This document shows positions 7,157-13,700 of a stretch of 64,000 bases of DNA, piece by piece (the stretch's first letter is position 1; each line of letters starts with the position of its first letter). The notes below the pieces were generated by a model. That model was not told the DNA's origin, did not search any database, and worked only from the letters and a program-made list of their open reading frames with translations. The translations under genes were made by a program, and so were the position numbers. The stretch spans positions 109,394-173,393 of the forward strand of contig DYMU01000005.1 in NCBI GenBank assembly GCA_020721445.1, in the 5' to 3' direction. Source of the stretch: Gemmobacter nectariphilus. Lineage in GTDB: Bacteria; Pseudomonadota; Alphaproteobacteria; Rhodobacterales; Rhodobacteraceae.

Positions 7157-7633
7157 TCAATCCTTGGCGGCGGAGTTCAACTGGTGCCAGGCATAGGCCC
7201 GGCCATCGGGAAAGACGGCAACAACGCGGTCGACATCGGCGGCGATGTTGGAGTGTGACAGGAAGGCAAGGGCCTCGCCACGGGCCAGCGCGGCAGCGAT
7301 GGTATGGGCATCAAAGCAGGCAAACCAGCCGTGGGCGACCTTGGGTTCGGCGCCGGGATAGGCGACATAGGTTTCCGACAGCATGGCCTGCGTCATCGGC
7401 GTGCTAAAGCAGGCGCGAAAGCCCAAGGCGCCGTTGCCTGCGTCGATGCCTTTGACCGCTTCGGTCAGGATCGGCTCGGGCTGGCCGGACTCAATCGTGG
7501 TCAGGGTGATATCCGGCCCCGGCGGGGCGCTGACCGGCGCGTCAAGCGCAAAGGCCTGCCCGCCCCAGATCGCCACGGCTGCACCCCATGCGATGATCAC
7601 GATACCCCTGCTGCGATCTTGCCGGTCATGCAT
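7157..7633 (-). CDS. DUF6446-like small secreted or membrane-anchored protein
   Basis: Start overlaps the glyQ stop; [31 protein letters not shown] hydrophobic N-terminus. DUF6446 assignment is from memory of the glyQ-glyS neighbourhood. Confidence 0.6.
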
Positions 7634-8624
7634 CGGCAACCGTGGCCCCGGCGTCGGGCGCGGCATCGGCCCCGGCCTCGGTCAGGCGGAAGGCGTCGGC
7701 GCATTTCCGGGCCAAAGCCCGCACCCGGCCGATATAGGCCTGGCGCTCGGTGACAGAAATCACGCCACGCGCATCCAGCAGGTTGAACAGGTGGCTGGCC
7801 TTGATGGTCTGGTCATAGGCGGGATGCGCCATGATGATGCGCTTGCCCGACTTTGGGTCATCCGCCGGAAAGGCCAGAAGCCGGTCACATTCGGCCTCGG
7901 CATCCTCAAAATGGCGCAGCAGTTGCGCGGTATCGGCGGCATCAAAGTTGTGGCGGCTGTATTCTTCCTCGGTCTGGCGGAAGATGTCGGCATAGGTCAG
8001 CGCAATCGGGCTGGCGGGGTCGTTGAACGGCATGGTCATCACATGGTCGATGCCCAGCACATACATCGCCAGCCGTTCCAGCCCATAGGTCAACTCGCCC
8101 GACACCGGGCGGCAGTCATGGCCGCAGACCTGCTGGAAATAGGTGAACTGGCTGACCTCCATCCCGTCGCACCACACCTCCCAGCCCAGACCCCAAGCAC
8201 CAAGGGTCGGGCTTTCCCAGTCATCCTCGACAAAGCGGATGTCGTGCAGGGCGGGGTCAAGGCCGATGGCGCGTAAGGAGCCAAGATACAGGCCTTGCAG
8301 ATCGGGGGGCGAGGGTTTGATGATCACCTGATACTGATAGTAGTGCTGCAAGCGGTTCGGGTTCTCGCCATAGCGCCCGTCGGTCGGGCGGCGCGAGGGC
8401 TGCACATAGGCCGCGGCCCAAGGCTTGCTGCCAAGGCTGCGCAGCGTGGTGGCCGGGTGAAAGGTGCCTGCCCCCACCTCCATGTCATAGGGTTGCAAGA
8501 TCGCGCAGCCCTTGGACGCCCAATAGGCTTGCAGCCGCAGGATCACCTCTTGAAACGACCGGGGGGACGGGTTTGCGCCGGTGTCGGCACCAGTCTTTGC
8601 GCCGGATGGTTGCATCTGTGACAT
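7626..8624 (-). CDS. glyQ: Glycine--tRNA ligase alpha subunit
   Basis: [43 protein letters not shown]... Confidence 0.95.
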
Positions 8625-8857
8625 AGCGATAACCCCCTTGGGCATGGAAGCCCTTGAAATGCTCGGCTGTCATAGGCAAGAGGCGGGCAAGGGTCAATGC
8701 GAAGCCGTGGCGAACCGGCGGCAAAGCCGTGGCGACCTTGGTGCCGCGGGCGCGCCTCGCGGTGGTGTGATGGGGCGGGGGGGTGAAAACCCCTCGCTTT
8801 TGGAGCGGCGGCACCCTTAGGGTGGGCCGGGTTTTGTGTGGTAAGGACGATACAGGC

Positions 8858-10615
8858 ATGGTGCGTTTGAAGTTTGGGCTTTGGATGATGGCGGCCCTGC
8901 TTTGGGCGGGGGTGGCCGCGGCCCAGCAACAGGCCTGGATCCAGGTCGAGGCGCAGCCCTCGCTGGCCGAAGCCGAAAACCGCGCCCGTGCCTATGCCGC
9001 GGCGTTTCCCGACGTGGTGGGCTACCGTCTGGGATCGCGCTGGTATGGCATCGCGCTTGGCCCCTATGCGCCGGACGATGCGGCCCGGCGGCTGGCCGAT
9101 CTGCGGCGCGAAAACCTGATCCCGGCCGACAGCTATCTGTCGGATGGCACCAATTTCCGCGAGCGGTTCTTTCCGGTCGGCACCCCGGCCCCCGCCCCGC
9201 AGCCTGTGACGCGCGCCCCTGTGGCGCCCGCGCCCGCCCCCGTGGCCGAGGCCCCGACAGAACCGTCGGCACCGGTGGTGGCCCCGGATGAAACCCCGGC
9301 GCAGGCCCGCCAGTCCGAGGCCGCGCTGACCCGCGCCGAACGCGAAGACCTGCAACGCGCCCTGCAATGGCAGGGCTTTTATGCCTCGGCCATCGACGGC
9401 GCCTTTGGGCCGGGCACCCGCAAATCCATGGCCGACTGGCAAGCCGCTATGGGGGCAGAGCCGACGGGCATCCTGACCGTGCGCCAGCGTGCCATGCTGG
9501 TGGCAAACTGGCAGGCCGATCTGGCCGCGTTCGGCTTTGAAACGGTGACCGAGGCCGCCTCGGGCATCGAGATCGACCTGCCGCTGGGTCTGGTGCAGTT
9601 CGACCATTACGAGCCGCCCTTCGTGCATTACACCCCCAAGGTGGCGGGCGGGATGCGGCTGATCCTGATCTCGCAGCCCGGCGACCGCGCAGCACTGTAT
9701 GGGCTGTATGATATCTTGCAAACCCTGACCATCATCCCGACCACGGGCGAGCGCAGCCGGGGCGAGCGGTCGTTTGAAATCAATGGTGTGTCCGCCACCA
9801 CGCAAAGCCATGCCTTTGCCGAAACCAAGGCTGGGCTGATCAAGGGCTATCTCCTGGTCTGGTCGCCGGGTCAGGCCGATCAGGCCGCCCGGGTGCTGGA
9901 CCGGATGAAGGCCAGCTTTCGCCCCATCGGCAACCGCGCGCTGGACCCCGGCATGGTGCCGATGACCGATGCCGCGCGGCGTGGCCTGCTGGCCGGGCTG
10001 GAACTGCGCCGCCCGCTGCGGTCCCGCTCGGGGTTCTATGTCGATCCGGTGGGCCATGTCGTCACCGCGGCCGAGGCGGTGGCCGGCTGCGGCCGCATCA
10101 CGCTGGACACGGTGACCGAGGCCACGGTGGCCTTCAGCGATGCCGCCAGCGGTCTGGCCCTCTTGACCCCCAACACCCCGCTGGCGCCGCCGGCGGTTGC
10201 CGGGTTCCAGATCGCGCCCGACCGGATCGGGGCCGAAGTGGCGGTGGCGGGCTATCCCTATGAAGACACCCTGCCCGCCCCGGTGATCACCTTTGGCGTG
10301 CTGGAAGATATCCAAGGCCTGAACGGCGAGGCCGGCCTCAAGCGCCTGGCCATCGGCACCCTGCCGGGCGATGCCGGCGGGCCGGTGCTGGATGGCACCG
10401 GCGCGGTGCTGGGCATGCTGCTGCCGCGCGCCGTGGGTGGCGCGCGGCTGTTGCCCGACGGGGTCGAATTTGCCACCGATGCCGCGACCATCGCGCAAAC
10501 CCTTGCCGCCCAGGGCATCACCGTCACCCTGGCCCCCGCCAGCGGCGGCCTTGCGCCGCAAGACCTGACGCGCAAGGCGATGGGAATGACGGTGCTGGTG
10601 TCGTGCTGGAACTAG
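8858..10615 (+). CDS. Secreted SPOR-like + peptidoglycan-binding + trypsin-fold (probable pseudoprotease) protein
   Basis: Signal peptide; SPOR-like QAWIQVEAQPSLAEAENRARAYA; PG-binding REDLQRALQWQGFYASAIDGAFGPGTRKSMADWQ; C-terminal serine-protease-like fold with GDAGGPVLD. Confidence 0.75.
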   Translation: MVRLKFGLWMMAALLWAGVAAAQQQAWIQVEAQPSLAEAENRARAYAAAFPDVVGYRLGSRWYGIALGPYAPDDAARRLADLRRENLIPADSYLSDGTNFRERFFPVGTPAPAPQPVTRAPVAPAPAPVAEAPTEPSAPVVAPDETPAQARQSEAALTRAEREDLQRALQWQGFYASAIDGAFGPGTRKSMADWQAAMGAEPTGILTVRQRAMLVANWQADLAAFGFETVTEAASGIEIDLPLGLVQFDHYEPPFVHYTPKVAGGMRLILISQPGDRAALYGLYDILQTLTIIPTTGERSRGERSFEINGVSATTQSHAFAETKAGLIKGYLLVWSPGQADQAARVLDRMKASFRPIGNRALDPGMVPMTDAARRGLLAGLELRRPLRSRSGFYVDPVGHVVTAAEAVAGCGRITLDTVTEATVAFSDAASGLALLTPNTPLAPPAVAGFQIAPDRIGAEVAVAGYPYEDTLPAPVITFGVLEDIQGLNGEAGLKRLAIGTLPGDAGGPVLDGTGAVLGMLLPRAVGGARLLPDGVEFATDAATIAQTLAAQGITVTLAPASGGLAPQDLTRKAMGMTVLVSCWN

Positions 10616-10729
10616 GCCTGCGTGGCACGGCCGCGGGGCATGATCTGGCGGCCCGAACCCGCGCGCCTGTGCCCTGACCTTTGCCACGCGCTTGGCCGGG
10701 GCGGGCGATGCGCCCGGGGCTGACCGGCA

Positions 10730-12178
10730 TCAGCCCCGCCAGAACCGCCCCATGAACAGCACATAGACCGACAACAACTCCAGCCGGCCCACCAGCATGC
10801 CGGCCATCATCAGCCATTTGGCGGGTTCGGGAAAGCCGTGCACCGCGCCGGTCGGCCCCACCTCGGGGCCGAACACCGGGCCGATGTTGGCGATTGATGT
10901 CCACGCGGCGGTGACGGCGGTCTTGGCCTCCAACCCGGTCAGTGACAGCGCCACGGCCAACAGGCCGAAGCTGAGGATGAACATGGTGAAGAACACGATC
11001 ACCGAGTCCAGCACATCCTGCCCGACGCTGCGCCCGTCATAGCGCAGCGGGTTGACCGAGCCCGGATTGTGCAGCCGCCGGATCTGCACCTTGATCGCCT
11101 CGAACAGGATCAGATAGCGAAACACCTTGACCGAACAGCCGGTCGAAGACGTGCAGCCGCCGATCAGCCCGACGATGATCAGGATTACAAAGGGAAACGG
11201 GCCCCATGTGGTCAGATCCACGCTAGCAAAGCCGGTGCCGGAAAAGGTGGACACGATATTGAACGTCGCTTCGCGGATCAGGCCGGGCAGCGGAATGTCG
11301 TGCGTGATCGCCTCATAGGCCACCACCCCGGCGATGGCATACAGGTTCCAGCGCAGATAAGCCCGCACCTGCGGGTCGTGCCACAGTGGCCGCAGCGAGC
11401 CTTGCGCCAGTTGCACAAAGCGGATGAAGGGAAGGCTGCCCAGCAGCATGAACACCGCCGCCGCATATTCCAACGGCCCGATGAACACGCCAAAGGATTT
11501 GTCGTAACTGGAAAAGCCCCCCGTCGAAACCGTGGTCAGCGCATGCACCACCGCGTCAAAGCCGGTCATCCCCAAGGCGAAAAACGTCACCGCGCAGGCG
11601 ACCGTCATCCAGACATAGACCTGAATCAGCGCCGATGAGATATCCATCGCCCGCGGCAAGACCTTGCCCAGCGTGTCAAACCCCTCGGACCGGAAGAACT
11701 GCATCCCGCCGACCTTCATCACCGGCAAGAACAGCATGGCGACGATCACGATCCCCAAGCCACCCAGCCATTGCAGGATGCCGCGCCACAGGTTCGCCCC
11801 CATCGGCAAGGCGTCGATGCCTTCTATGGTCGTGGTGCCGGTCGTGGTCATGCCCGACACGCTTTCCAGCAGCGCATCGGTCAGCGACAGGCCGGGTGCA
11901 CCCAGAATCAGCGGCAATGACCCGAAGGCCGGCAGTGCAATCCAGACCCCGGTGGTCAGCAAGAACACCTGCCGCAGGGTCATGGAACGGCCGGCGCCGT
12001 TTGCCGTTGCCAGCGCCACGGCACTGCCAGACACCAGACAGATCACCGAGGCGCCGAAGAACGCCCGCCAGTTGGCATCGCCGGCCGCCAGGTCCAGCAC
12101 CAGCGGAAACAGCATGAACAGCCCCATGGCAACCACCAGAAGGCCGATCACATACAACACGGGGCGCGGATCAATCAT
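10730..12178 (-). CDS. trkH: TrkH-family potassium uptake protein, paralogue 1
   Basis: TrkH pore-loop motifs TTTGTTTI, STGGFS, FSGTGFAS, SIANIGPVFG. Confidence 0.9.
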   Translation of the reverse strand: MIDPRPVLYVIGLLVVAMGLFMLFPLVLDLAAGDANWRAFFGASVICLVSGSAVALATANGAGRSMTLRQVFLLTTGVWIALPAFGSLPLILGAPGLSLTDALLESVSGMTTTGTTTIEGIDALPMGANLWRGILQWLGGLGIVIVAMLFLPVMKVGGMQFFRSEGFDTLGKVLPRAMDISSALIQVYVWMTVACAVTFFALGMTGFDAVVHALTTVSTGGFSSYDKSFGVFIGPLEYAAAVFMLLGSLPFIRFVQLAQGSLRPLWHDPQVRAYLRWNLYAIAGVVAYEAITHDIPLPGLIREATFNIVSTFSGTGFASVDLTTWGPFPFVILIIVGLIGGCTSSTGCSVKVFRYLILFEAIKVQIRRLHNPGSVNPLRYDGRSVGQDVLDSVIVFFTMFILSFGLLAVALSLTGLEAKTAVTAAWTSIANIGPVFGPEVGPTGAVHGFPEPAKWLMMAGMLVGRLELLSVYVLFMGRFWRG

Positions 12179-12251
12179 GCGGCACAATTGAGGCGTTGGC
12201 GGCGCATGTCAACGCGATGTGGCTGGGTTTGGGTGCGACTGTCGCGCAGTC

Positions 12252-13700
12252 CTAATGCCGCCAGAACGACGGCAGCACCAGCACCAGAACCGCAAGCAGC
12301 CCCAGCCGCCCCATCAGCATCGCAAGGATCATGATCCATTTCGCCGCATCCGGAAAGTCGCGGAAGGTGCCGGTTTCCGCCACCATCGGGCCATAGCCAT
12401 AGCCGATATTGCCGATCGAGGTCCAGATGCCGAACAGCGCCGAGATCATGTCGACGCCCACCAGTGTCATCGCCACCGACAGCATGCCAAGCGTCAGGAT
12501 GTAGCCCGTCACATACAGCATCAGGGCATTGATCGTCTCGTCCTCGACCCGGCGCCCGGCATAGCGCAGGGTCACCATGCGGTCGGGGTGCTGGATGCGG
12601 GCGACCTGCGCCGCCACCGCGCGCGCCGCGACCTGCACCCGAAACACCGACAGCGCGCCCGATGATGACCCCGAACAGCCACCGATCAGCCCGACGATGA
12701 ACGCAATGGCCATCGAGAACCCGCCCCAACCGCCGAAACTGCCGGAAAAGAACCCGGTTCCGGTGATCACGGACGACAGGTTGAACAGTGCCTCGCGAAA
12801 CGCAGGCTCCAAGGCCATGTCCGACGTGGCGACCCGCCATGCCGTGACCGCAAGCACCGCAATTGCCGTCCACAGAAACAACGCCCTGACCTGCAGATCG
12901 CCCGCAACGGCCATCGGCTTTCCCGCGGCCATCTGAGCGTAAAGGATATAGGGCAGACTGCCCAGCAGCATGAACAGCGCCCCGAAGTATTCGGCTGGCC
13001 CGGCGTATTTGCCAAAGGACGTGTCAGCCGGCGAAAAGCCCCCGGTCGCGATGGTGGCAGCGCCGTTCACGACAGCGTCGATCCCGGTCATCCCCACGGC
13101 CTGATAGACAAGGATGCAGGCCACCGTCAGCCCAAGATAGACCCCCAGCAGCGCCTTGGCGATGTCGGTGGCGCGCGGCAGCGCCTTGCCCAGGGTATCA
13201 AACCCTTCGGTGCGGAAAAACTGCATGCCACCCACCCGCATCACCGGCAGAAAGATCATCGCCACAAAGGCGATGCCCAGGCCACCGATCCAGTTCAGCG
13301 CACCGCGCCACAGGTTCATTCCCGGCGGCAAGGCATCCAGCCCGACGATCACCGTCGAGCCGGTGGTGGTGATGCCCGACACCGCCTCGAAATATGCATC
13401 GGTAAACGACAGGCCGGGTGCGCCCAGCAGGAATGGCAGACAGCCGAACAGCGGCAGCCCCGCCCAGACCATCACGGTCAGAACATAGGCCTGACGGGTG
13501 TTCAATTGGCGCAAATCTGCGTTTCCCGTAGCAATCCTGACGGCAAGACCCACTCCGCCCGTACTCAGGGCGGATTGCAGAAAGTCGATCCCGTTCGTCA
13601 GCCCCACCGAAAGGTCCAAGGTTGCCGGAACCAGCATTACTGCCGCCAGAAAGACCAGCAAGTTGCCGATCACATAGGCAATGGGCCGGAAATCGACCAT
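12252..13700 (-). CDS. trkH: TrkH-family potassium uptake protein, paralogue 2
   Basis: TTTGSTVI, ATGGFS, ITGTGFFS, SIGNIGYGYG; clearly homologous along its length to the adjacent trkH. Confidence 0.9.
   Translation of the reverse strand: MVDFRPIAYVIGNLLVFLAAVMLVPATLDLSVGLTNGIDFLQSALSTGGVGLAVRIATGNADLRQLNTRQAYVLTVMVWAGLPLFGCLPFLLGAPGLSFTDAYFEAVSGITTTGSTVIVGLDALPPGMNLWRGALNWIGGLGIAFVAMIFLPVMRVGGMQFFRTEGFDTLGKALPRATDIAKALLGVYLGLTVACILVYQAVGMTGIDAVVNGAATIATGGFSPADTSFGKYAGPAEYFGALFMLLGSLPYILYAQMAAGKPMAVAGDLQVRALFLWTAIAVLAVTAWRVATSDMALEPAFREALFNLSSVITGTGFFSGSFGGWGGFSMAIAFIVGLIGGCSGSSSGALSVFRVQVAARAVAAQVARIQHPDRMVTLRYAGRRVEDETINALMLYVTGYILTLGMLSVAMTLVGVDMISALFGIWTSIGNIGYGYGPMVAETGTFRDFPDAAKWIMILAMLMGRLGLLAVLVLVLPSFWRH

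Follow-up and report, generated by a model that had tools for sequence, protein, structure and literature searches.

The gene at positions 8858-10615 (+) of the window, the 64,000 nucleotide stretch of Gemmobacter nectariphilus DNA analysed here, encodes an exported-type protein of 585 aa that is well supported, through sequence comparison, as a non-catalytic pseudoprotease whose catalytic triad was lost long ago, a loss now fixed throughout the Rhodobacteraceae. On balance, it seems likely that this is an exported, peptidoglycan-associated protein, the domains of which dock and regulate another envelope enzyme. Pseudoproteases of the chymotrypsin fold are already known; the literature searched yielded no description of this particular family, of its domain architecture or of how widely it is distributed.

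The gene and its chromosomal context

The open reading frame is judged to be real. An AAGGA sequence lies approximately 11 bases upstream of the ATG, nearly all orthologues begin in the same manner as the signal peptide of the window protein, and the C-terminal residues are Cys-Trp-Asn. The gene is flanked by a divergent and a convergent neighbour, which we take, by recognition, to be glyQ and trkH:

7626..8645 (-), glyQ, for the alpha chain of glycyl-tRNA synthetase; divergent, and the anchor for synteny
10730..12187 (-), trkH-like gene for a K+ transporter; convergent

A second trkH-like gene (12252-13700, -) stands in tandem with that at 10730-12187; many relatives have a single one. A 714 aa open reading frame (8543-10687, -), antisense to the whole of the pseudoprotease gene, is most likely a GC-rich shadow frame. 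Scanning the pseudoprotease gene for a sigma-70 promoter and a terminator revealed no signal exceeding chance, and the neighbouring glyQ, trkH and folE2 give no clue to its function.

Matches to the protein were found in 215 of 249 sampled Rhodobacteraceae genomes. Five were dropped, as they comprised only a peptidoglycan-binding domain, a triad-bearing paralogue or a form lacking the trypsin domain, leaving orthologues in approximately 210 genomes; a second draw of 150 genomes agrees. At 86 of 93 loci the gene adjoins a divergent glyQ, with several of the remainder lying at a contig end, and a trkH-like gene is nearby at 59 of the 93. Annotated plasmid records yielded one near-full-length match, itself in an unannotated record. 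The window's genome harbours one copy of the dead form, and a close triad-bearing paralogue was not found there. Also encoded there are two Do-like proteases, both retaining the triad, and two trypsin-like proteins in tandem (G000:C52:329-1575; L300 and L302), the latter pair displaying the motifs AAHC, FDVALL and GSSGAP.

Domain organisation and predicted structure

The protein consists of a signal peptide, a SPOR-like domain, a linker, a PG_binding_1 domain, a PsbP-like domain and a dead trypsin domain, arranged as follows:

8858..8923 (+), signal peptide, residues 1-22, MVRLKFGLWMMAALLWAGVAAA, predicted from the sequence pattern of a basic start, hydrophobic stretch and A-x-A end
8933..9172 (+), SPOR-like domain, residues 26-105 (PF05036 at 26-81, E 5e-4)
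9173..9307 (+), Pro/Ala-rich linker, residues 106-150 (pLDDT <50 at 115-126; mean identity 34%)
9308..9517 (+), peptidoglycan-binding domain PG_binding_1, residues 151-220 (PF01471 at 159-214, E 2.4e-11)
9521..9931 (+), PsbP-like alpha/beta domain, residues 222-358 (Foldseek and AlphaFold; no Pfam family)
10010..10612 (+), pseudoprotease domain of chymotrypsin fold, residues 385-585 (PF13365, model and Foldseek)

The PF05036 match scores 20.7 bits in the window protein against a Pfam cut-off of 21, and the SPOR domain is matched at E<=0.01 in 18 of 44 orthologues, with a best E of 3e-7. By contrast with this borderline score, PF01471 lies well over its threshold (44.1 bits against a cut-off of 23) and is matched in all 44. 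The signal peptide and these two peptidoglycan-binding-type domains bear out, as a prediction from sequence, the earlier proposal of a periplasmic or peptidoglycan-located protein.

The middle domain, approximately residues 222-358, had been missed by that sequence-only reading, as had an invariant pair of cysteines (C411 and C583). Modelled alone with AlphaFold, it reached a pLDDT of 93.1 and a pTM of 0.87, and Foldseek places CyanoP and PsbP at the top of the list of matches (E 1.2e-5, TM 0.6-0.7 on the query). It thus has the fold of PsbP, CyanoP and DcrB (PsbP/Mog1-like), with no detectable sequence similarity to these proteins and no link to a photosystem. Pfam leaves the region unmatched in the window member, with two weak single-member matches among 21 members, and searching the PDB by sequence returned no match. 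The domain is common to dead and triad-bearing proteins.

The C-terminal domain is matched by PF13365 (Trypsin_2) at residues 391-520 (E 3.9e-14, 54 bits against a cut-off of 27.6), as it is in 44 of 44 orthologues. Its model has a pLDDT mostly above 90 and is matched by Foldseek to DegS, MarP and HtrA (E 1e-9 to 1e-8, TM 0.6-0.68 on protease-domain targets). Neither a PDZ nor a TauE domain was found in a Pfam scan of the window protein. For the full-length protein, AlphaFold gives a mean pLDDT of 89.9 and a disordered linker; the pTM of 0.51 suggests no fixed arrangement of the domains relative to one another.

Replacement of the catalytic triad

The positions of the triad were mapped by alignment to Mycobacterium tuberculosis MarP, the catalytic residues of which are His235, Asp264 and Ser343 (PMC6628586). 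MarP, also known as Rv3671c, is the best sequence relative of the trypsin domain in the PDB (3lt3 and 3k6y), the top match, 3lt3, being the S343A mutant. The residues concerned, along with the two cysteines, are:

10073..10075 (+), Glu406, at the catalytic His position (aligned to MarP H235)
10088..10090 (+), Cys411, invariant both within the clade and among its triad-bearing relatives
10151..10153 (+), Gly432, at the catalytic Asp position (aligned to MarP D264)
10373..10375 (+), Ala506, at the catalytic Ser position within a retained G-D-x-G-G-P loop (aligned to MarP S343)
10604..10606 (+), Cys583, in the CW motif at the C-terminus, likewise invariant in the clade and in those relatives whose C-terminus is present

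It had been claimed from the sequence that all three motifs were substituted while the surrounding fold was kept. The three strings quoted in support prove correct letter for letter, the alignment to MarP confirms the replacement at each position, and the Trypsin_2 and Foldseek matches attest to the fold. The domain accordingly lacks the His-Asp-Ser triad that defines an active S1 serine protease, having E406, G432 and A506 instead. It also falls outside the HtrA/Deg type, which combines a triad with a C-terminal PDZ domain, both being absent here. Nor is it a member of the MarP family NF033740, for which it scores 31.6 bits against a cut-off of 250; MarP possesses its triad and four transmembrane helices, whereas the window protein has a signal peptide and no triad.

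The same substitutions extend through the clade. Among 164 distinct sequences, the His site is occupied by E in 101, D in 30, A in 14 and H in one; the Asp site by G in 151 and D in four; and the Ser site by A in 119, V in 19, T in nine and S in five. Triad residues are entirely absent from 154 members, one is kept in ten, and none retains two or three. Conservation of the particular replacements E, G and A, proposed as a check, holds in part: the glycine at the Asp site is found in 92% of sequences, the His site is Glu or Asp in 80%, and alanine at the Ser site reaches 73%.

A recent pseudogene or a sequencing error was ruled out, as the reading frames are intact and dN/dS is low across the family. 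The domain might still act as an enzyme through other residues, such as Cys411 and Cys583 or an acid-based site, given that it retains the G-D-x-G-G-P loop together with two invariant cysteines. This is scarcely credible: a 44-sequence alignment of the domain contains no invariant His, Asp, Ser, Lys or Glu, the invariant positions being C411, C583, W584 and R496, so that R496 aside there is no invariant catalytic-type side chain and alternative catalytic residues could be ruled out, while the Ser site tolerates A, V, T, M, I, E, W, Y and F. The cysteines, being equally conserved in triad-bearing relatives, are probably structural, and a Cys411-Cys583 disulfide is probable.

Triad-bearing relatives and a second dead lineage

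Relatives outside the clade were drawn both from the Rhodobacteraceae themselves (for example, L219-L224 and L234) and from further families of Alphaproteobacteria (L136-L161). These Trypsin_2 proteins are direct homologues in which the triad is present: of 53 sampled, 52 have HDS and one HDT at the catalytic positions, and nearly all have the same two cysteines. Several of the triad-bearing paralogues in the Rhodobacteraceae carry the peptidoglycan-binding and PsbP-like regions; in L234 and L220 a SPOR domain is present as well. This domain arrangement was therefore at one time combined with a triad. The locus of L234 was checked and lies away from glyQ. The dead proteins form one clade when the triad columns are masked (support 100/99), and again in a three-domain tree (100/100). 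The earlier proposal that the protein is non-catalytic is upheld by this deep single clade, by the family-wide loss of the triad, by the lack of alternative invariant catalytic residues and by purifying selection; the natural absence of the trypsin domain from one genus lends further support.

The existence of triad-bearing proteins with peptidoglycan-binding, PsbP-like and trypsin domains (L219-L224) in the same genomes as the dead form raises the prospect that the latter is a decoy or inhibitor of an active paralogue, in the manner of iRhoms. Such paralogues (L219-L224, L234 and L239-L252) are sporadic, however, with approximately 15 full-length examples in 249 genomes and none in that of the window, while the dead form is near-universal, making this role very improbable. 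Strict pairing of the dead form with an active paralogue was ruled out on the same distribution.

A second alphaproteobacterial family (f70) encodes proteins combining peptidoglycan-binding, PsbP-like and trypsin domains in 24 of 60 genomes, nearly all of them without the triad. The broken triads of this group (L269, L270 and L273-L296) include GGG, AGA and SGM, and one genome (G677) has both a dead form and a triad-bearing relative (L297). In the best tree, the dead groups of the Rhodobacteraceae and f70 are placed apart; a common origin is not rejected (p-AU 0.152).

Constraint on the dead domain

The dead domain is under purifying selection and, judged from its sequences, as tightly kept as the SPOR and PsbP-like domains. 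In 13 close pairs dN/dS ranges from 0.04 to 0.29, mostly 0.04-0.2, and mean pairwise identity is 49% in the dead domain, 50% in SPOR, 49% in the PsbP-like domain and 59% in the peptidoglycan-binding domain, the most conserved of the four. Certain conserved residues are new in the dead clade, namely R390, S391, T415, P438, R496 and D505; relatives have Gly at 390, Gln at 496 and Asn at 505. The first of these is placed as follows:

10025..10027 (+), Arg390, where GSGF/GTGF has its conserved Gly (84% R within the dead clade; 98% G among triad-bearing relatives)

Covariation links columns 390 and 406, which are mutually best partners with a z of 6.2 and rank 15th of 20,706 column pairs. Counted per sequence, R390 is present in 124 of 131 sequences with an acidic residue at 406 and in 14 of 33 with a non-acidic one. 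Once kinship is corrected for, 4.7 of 13 independent pairs change in the same direction against 0.5 in the opposite (median p 0.125), and the coupling is only suggestive. Other high-coupling pairs (425-437, 423-439 and 420-440) show the pattern of neighbouring antiparallel strands. The covariation suggests that Arg390 and Glu406 form an ion pair in place of the former His centre; in most members, this pair may fix the former active site in a non-catalytic shape.

Several natural variants of the architecture exist. In one genus (g24, L225-L229), the gene at the glyQ/trkH locus encodes SPOR, SPOR, peptidoglycan-binding and PsbP-like domains with no trypsin domain, and hence that domain is not always needed. 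One copy (L237/L272, G576) is truncated to 388 aa and also lacks it, and in L169 (G115) the copy is split across two frames. L231 retains the PsbP-like and trypsin domains and has lost SPOR and peptidoglycan binding. The genus with a second SPOR in place of the trypsin domain, together with the truncated L237, would fit a structural protein bound to the sacculus, in which function resides in the SPOR, peptidoglycan-binding and PsbP-like domains, with the dead domain serving as a cap that stabilises or spaces. Yet elsewhere the dead domain matches the conservation of its SPOR and PsbP-like partners, with low dN/dS and new clade-specific charged residues, and L231 represents the converse case; a purely structural role is therefore considered unlikely.

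A proposed role in the cell envelope

The old loss of the triad, combined with strict preservation of the domain, probably marks a docking part attached to the cell wall rather than an enzyme. In the favoured reading, that of a peptidoglycan-associated regulator, the SPOR and PG_binding_1 domains would tether the protein to the sacculus, with SPOR directing it toward denuded, septal peptidoglycan. The PsbP-like and dead protease domains would act as protein- or peptide-binding modules docking a partner envelope enzyme, which the pseudoprotease may then regulate. The sensor or adaptor role suggested by the sequence-only reading is a reasonable inference.

DipM and MamO provide precedents for such working logic. 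DipM is a periplasmic pseudoenzyme of the peptidoglycan machinery: its inactive LytM domain is a docking site for autolysins and stimulates them (PMC10336132), and a docking function is likewise proposed here for the dead trypsin domain. The LytM metallopeptidase fold is unrelated to trypsin, so the likeness is in working logic only; a DipM-like role is preferred, with moderate confidence and by analogy, because of the two peptidoglycan-binding-type domains. MarP, from which the triad was mapped, itself acts on a peptidoglycan hydrolase, RipA (PMC6628586).

MamO, a Trypsin_2-type pseudoprotease of Magnetospirillum, is needed for proteolysis by MamE (PMC4794232). It resembles the window protein in kind, both being alphaproteobacterial Trypsin_2-type domains with a degenerate triad that form a clade of their own. 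The function of MamO has been shown to be non-catalytic. Its TauE transporter domain, di-His metal site and location in the magnetosome island contrast with the SPOR, peptidoglycan-binding and PsbP-like domains, lack of any invariant His and family-wide presence seen here. Of the characters of the MamO type, the protein therefore has the degenerate triad and separate clade and lacks TauE and the di-His site. This precedent, and the two Do-like proteases and tandem trypsin-like pair in the window's genome, could be taken to indicate that the protein activates or regulates a true periplasmic protease, such as a DegP-like enzyme, by direct contact and away from the peptidoglycan machinery. Against this, the gene is linked to no protease gene, and only a minority of genomes have a full-length paralogue that shares the architecture and bears a triad; such a role appears improbable. 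DegP-like proteins are in any case very widespread, so that their co-occurrence with the pseudoprotease says little.

A wider reading, advanced tentatively, is that a peptidoglycan-tethered protease has recurrently been converted into a non-catalytic envelope regulator, a history recorded at the glyQ - gene - trkH locus. Its elements would be the surviving triad-bearing paralogues, the Arg-Glu pair, the genus without the domain and the separate loss in a second family.

Significance

A literature search found no paper on the Rhodobacteraceae pseudoprotease; searching the main text of a Tn-seq paper on R. sphaeroides revealed no mention of the gene, and the protein was not found in papers on DalA and on D. 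shibae vesicles. Automatic annotation probably treats it as nothing more than a trypsin-like or a peptidoglycan-binding protein. To our knowledge, few bacterial trypsin-fold pseudoproteases have a known role, MamO being one. The present protein, with two peptidoglycan-binding-type domains, is near-universal in a large family that includes Rhodobacter and the roseobacters. It would offer a testable dead-enzyme regulator of the envelope in genetically tractable hosts, for which the triad-bearing paralogues, the genus without the domain and the second dead lineage may serve as natural controls.
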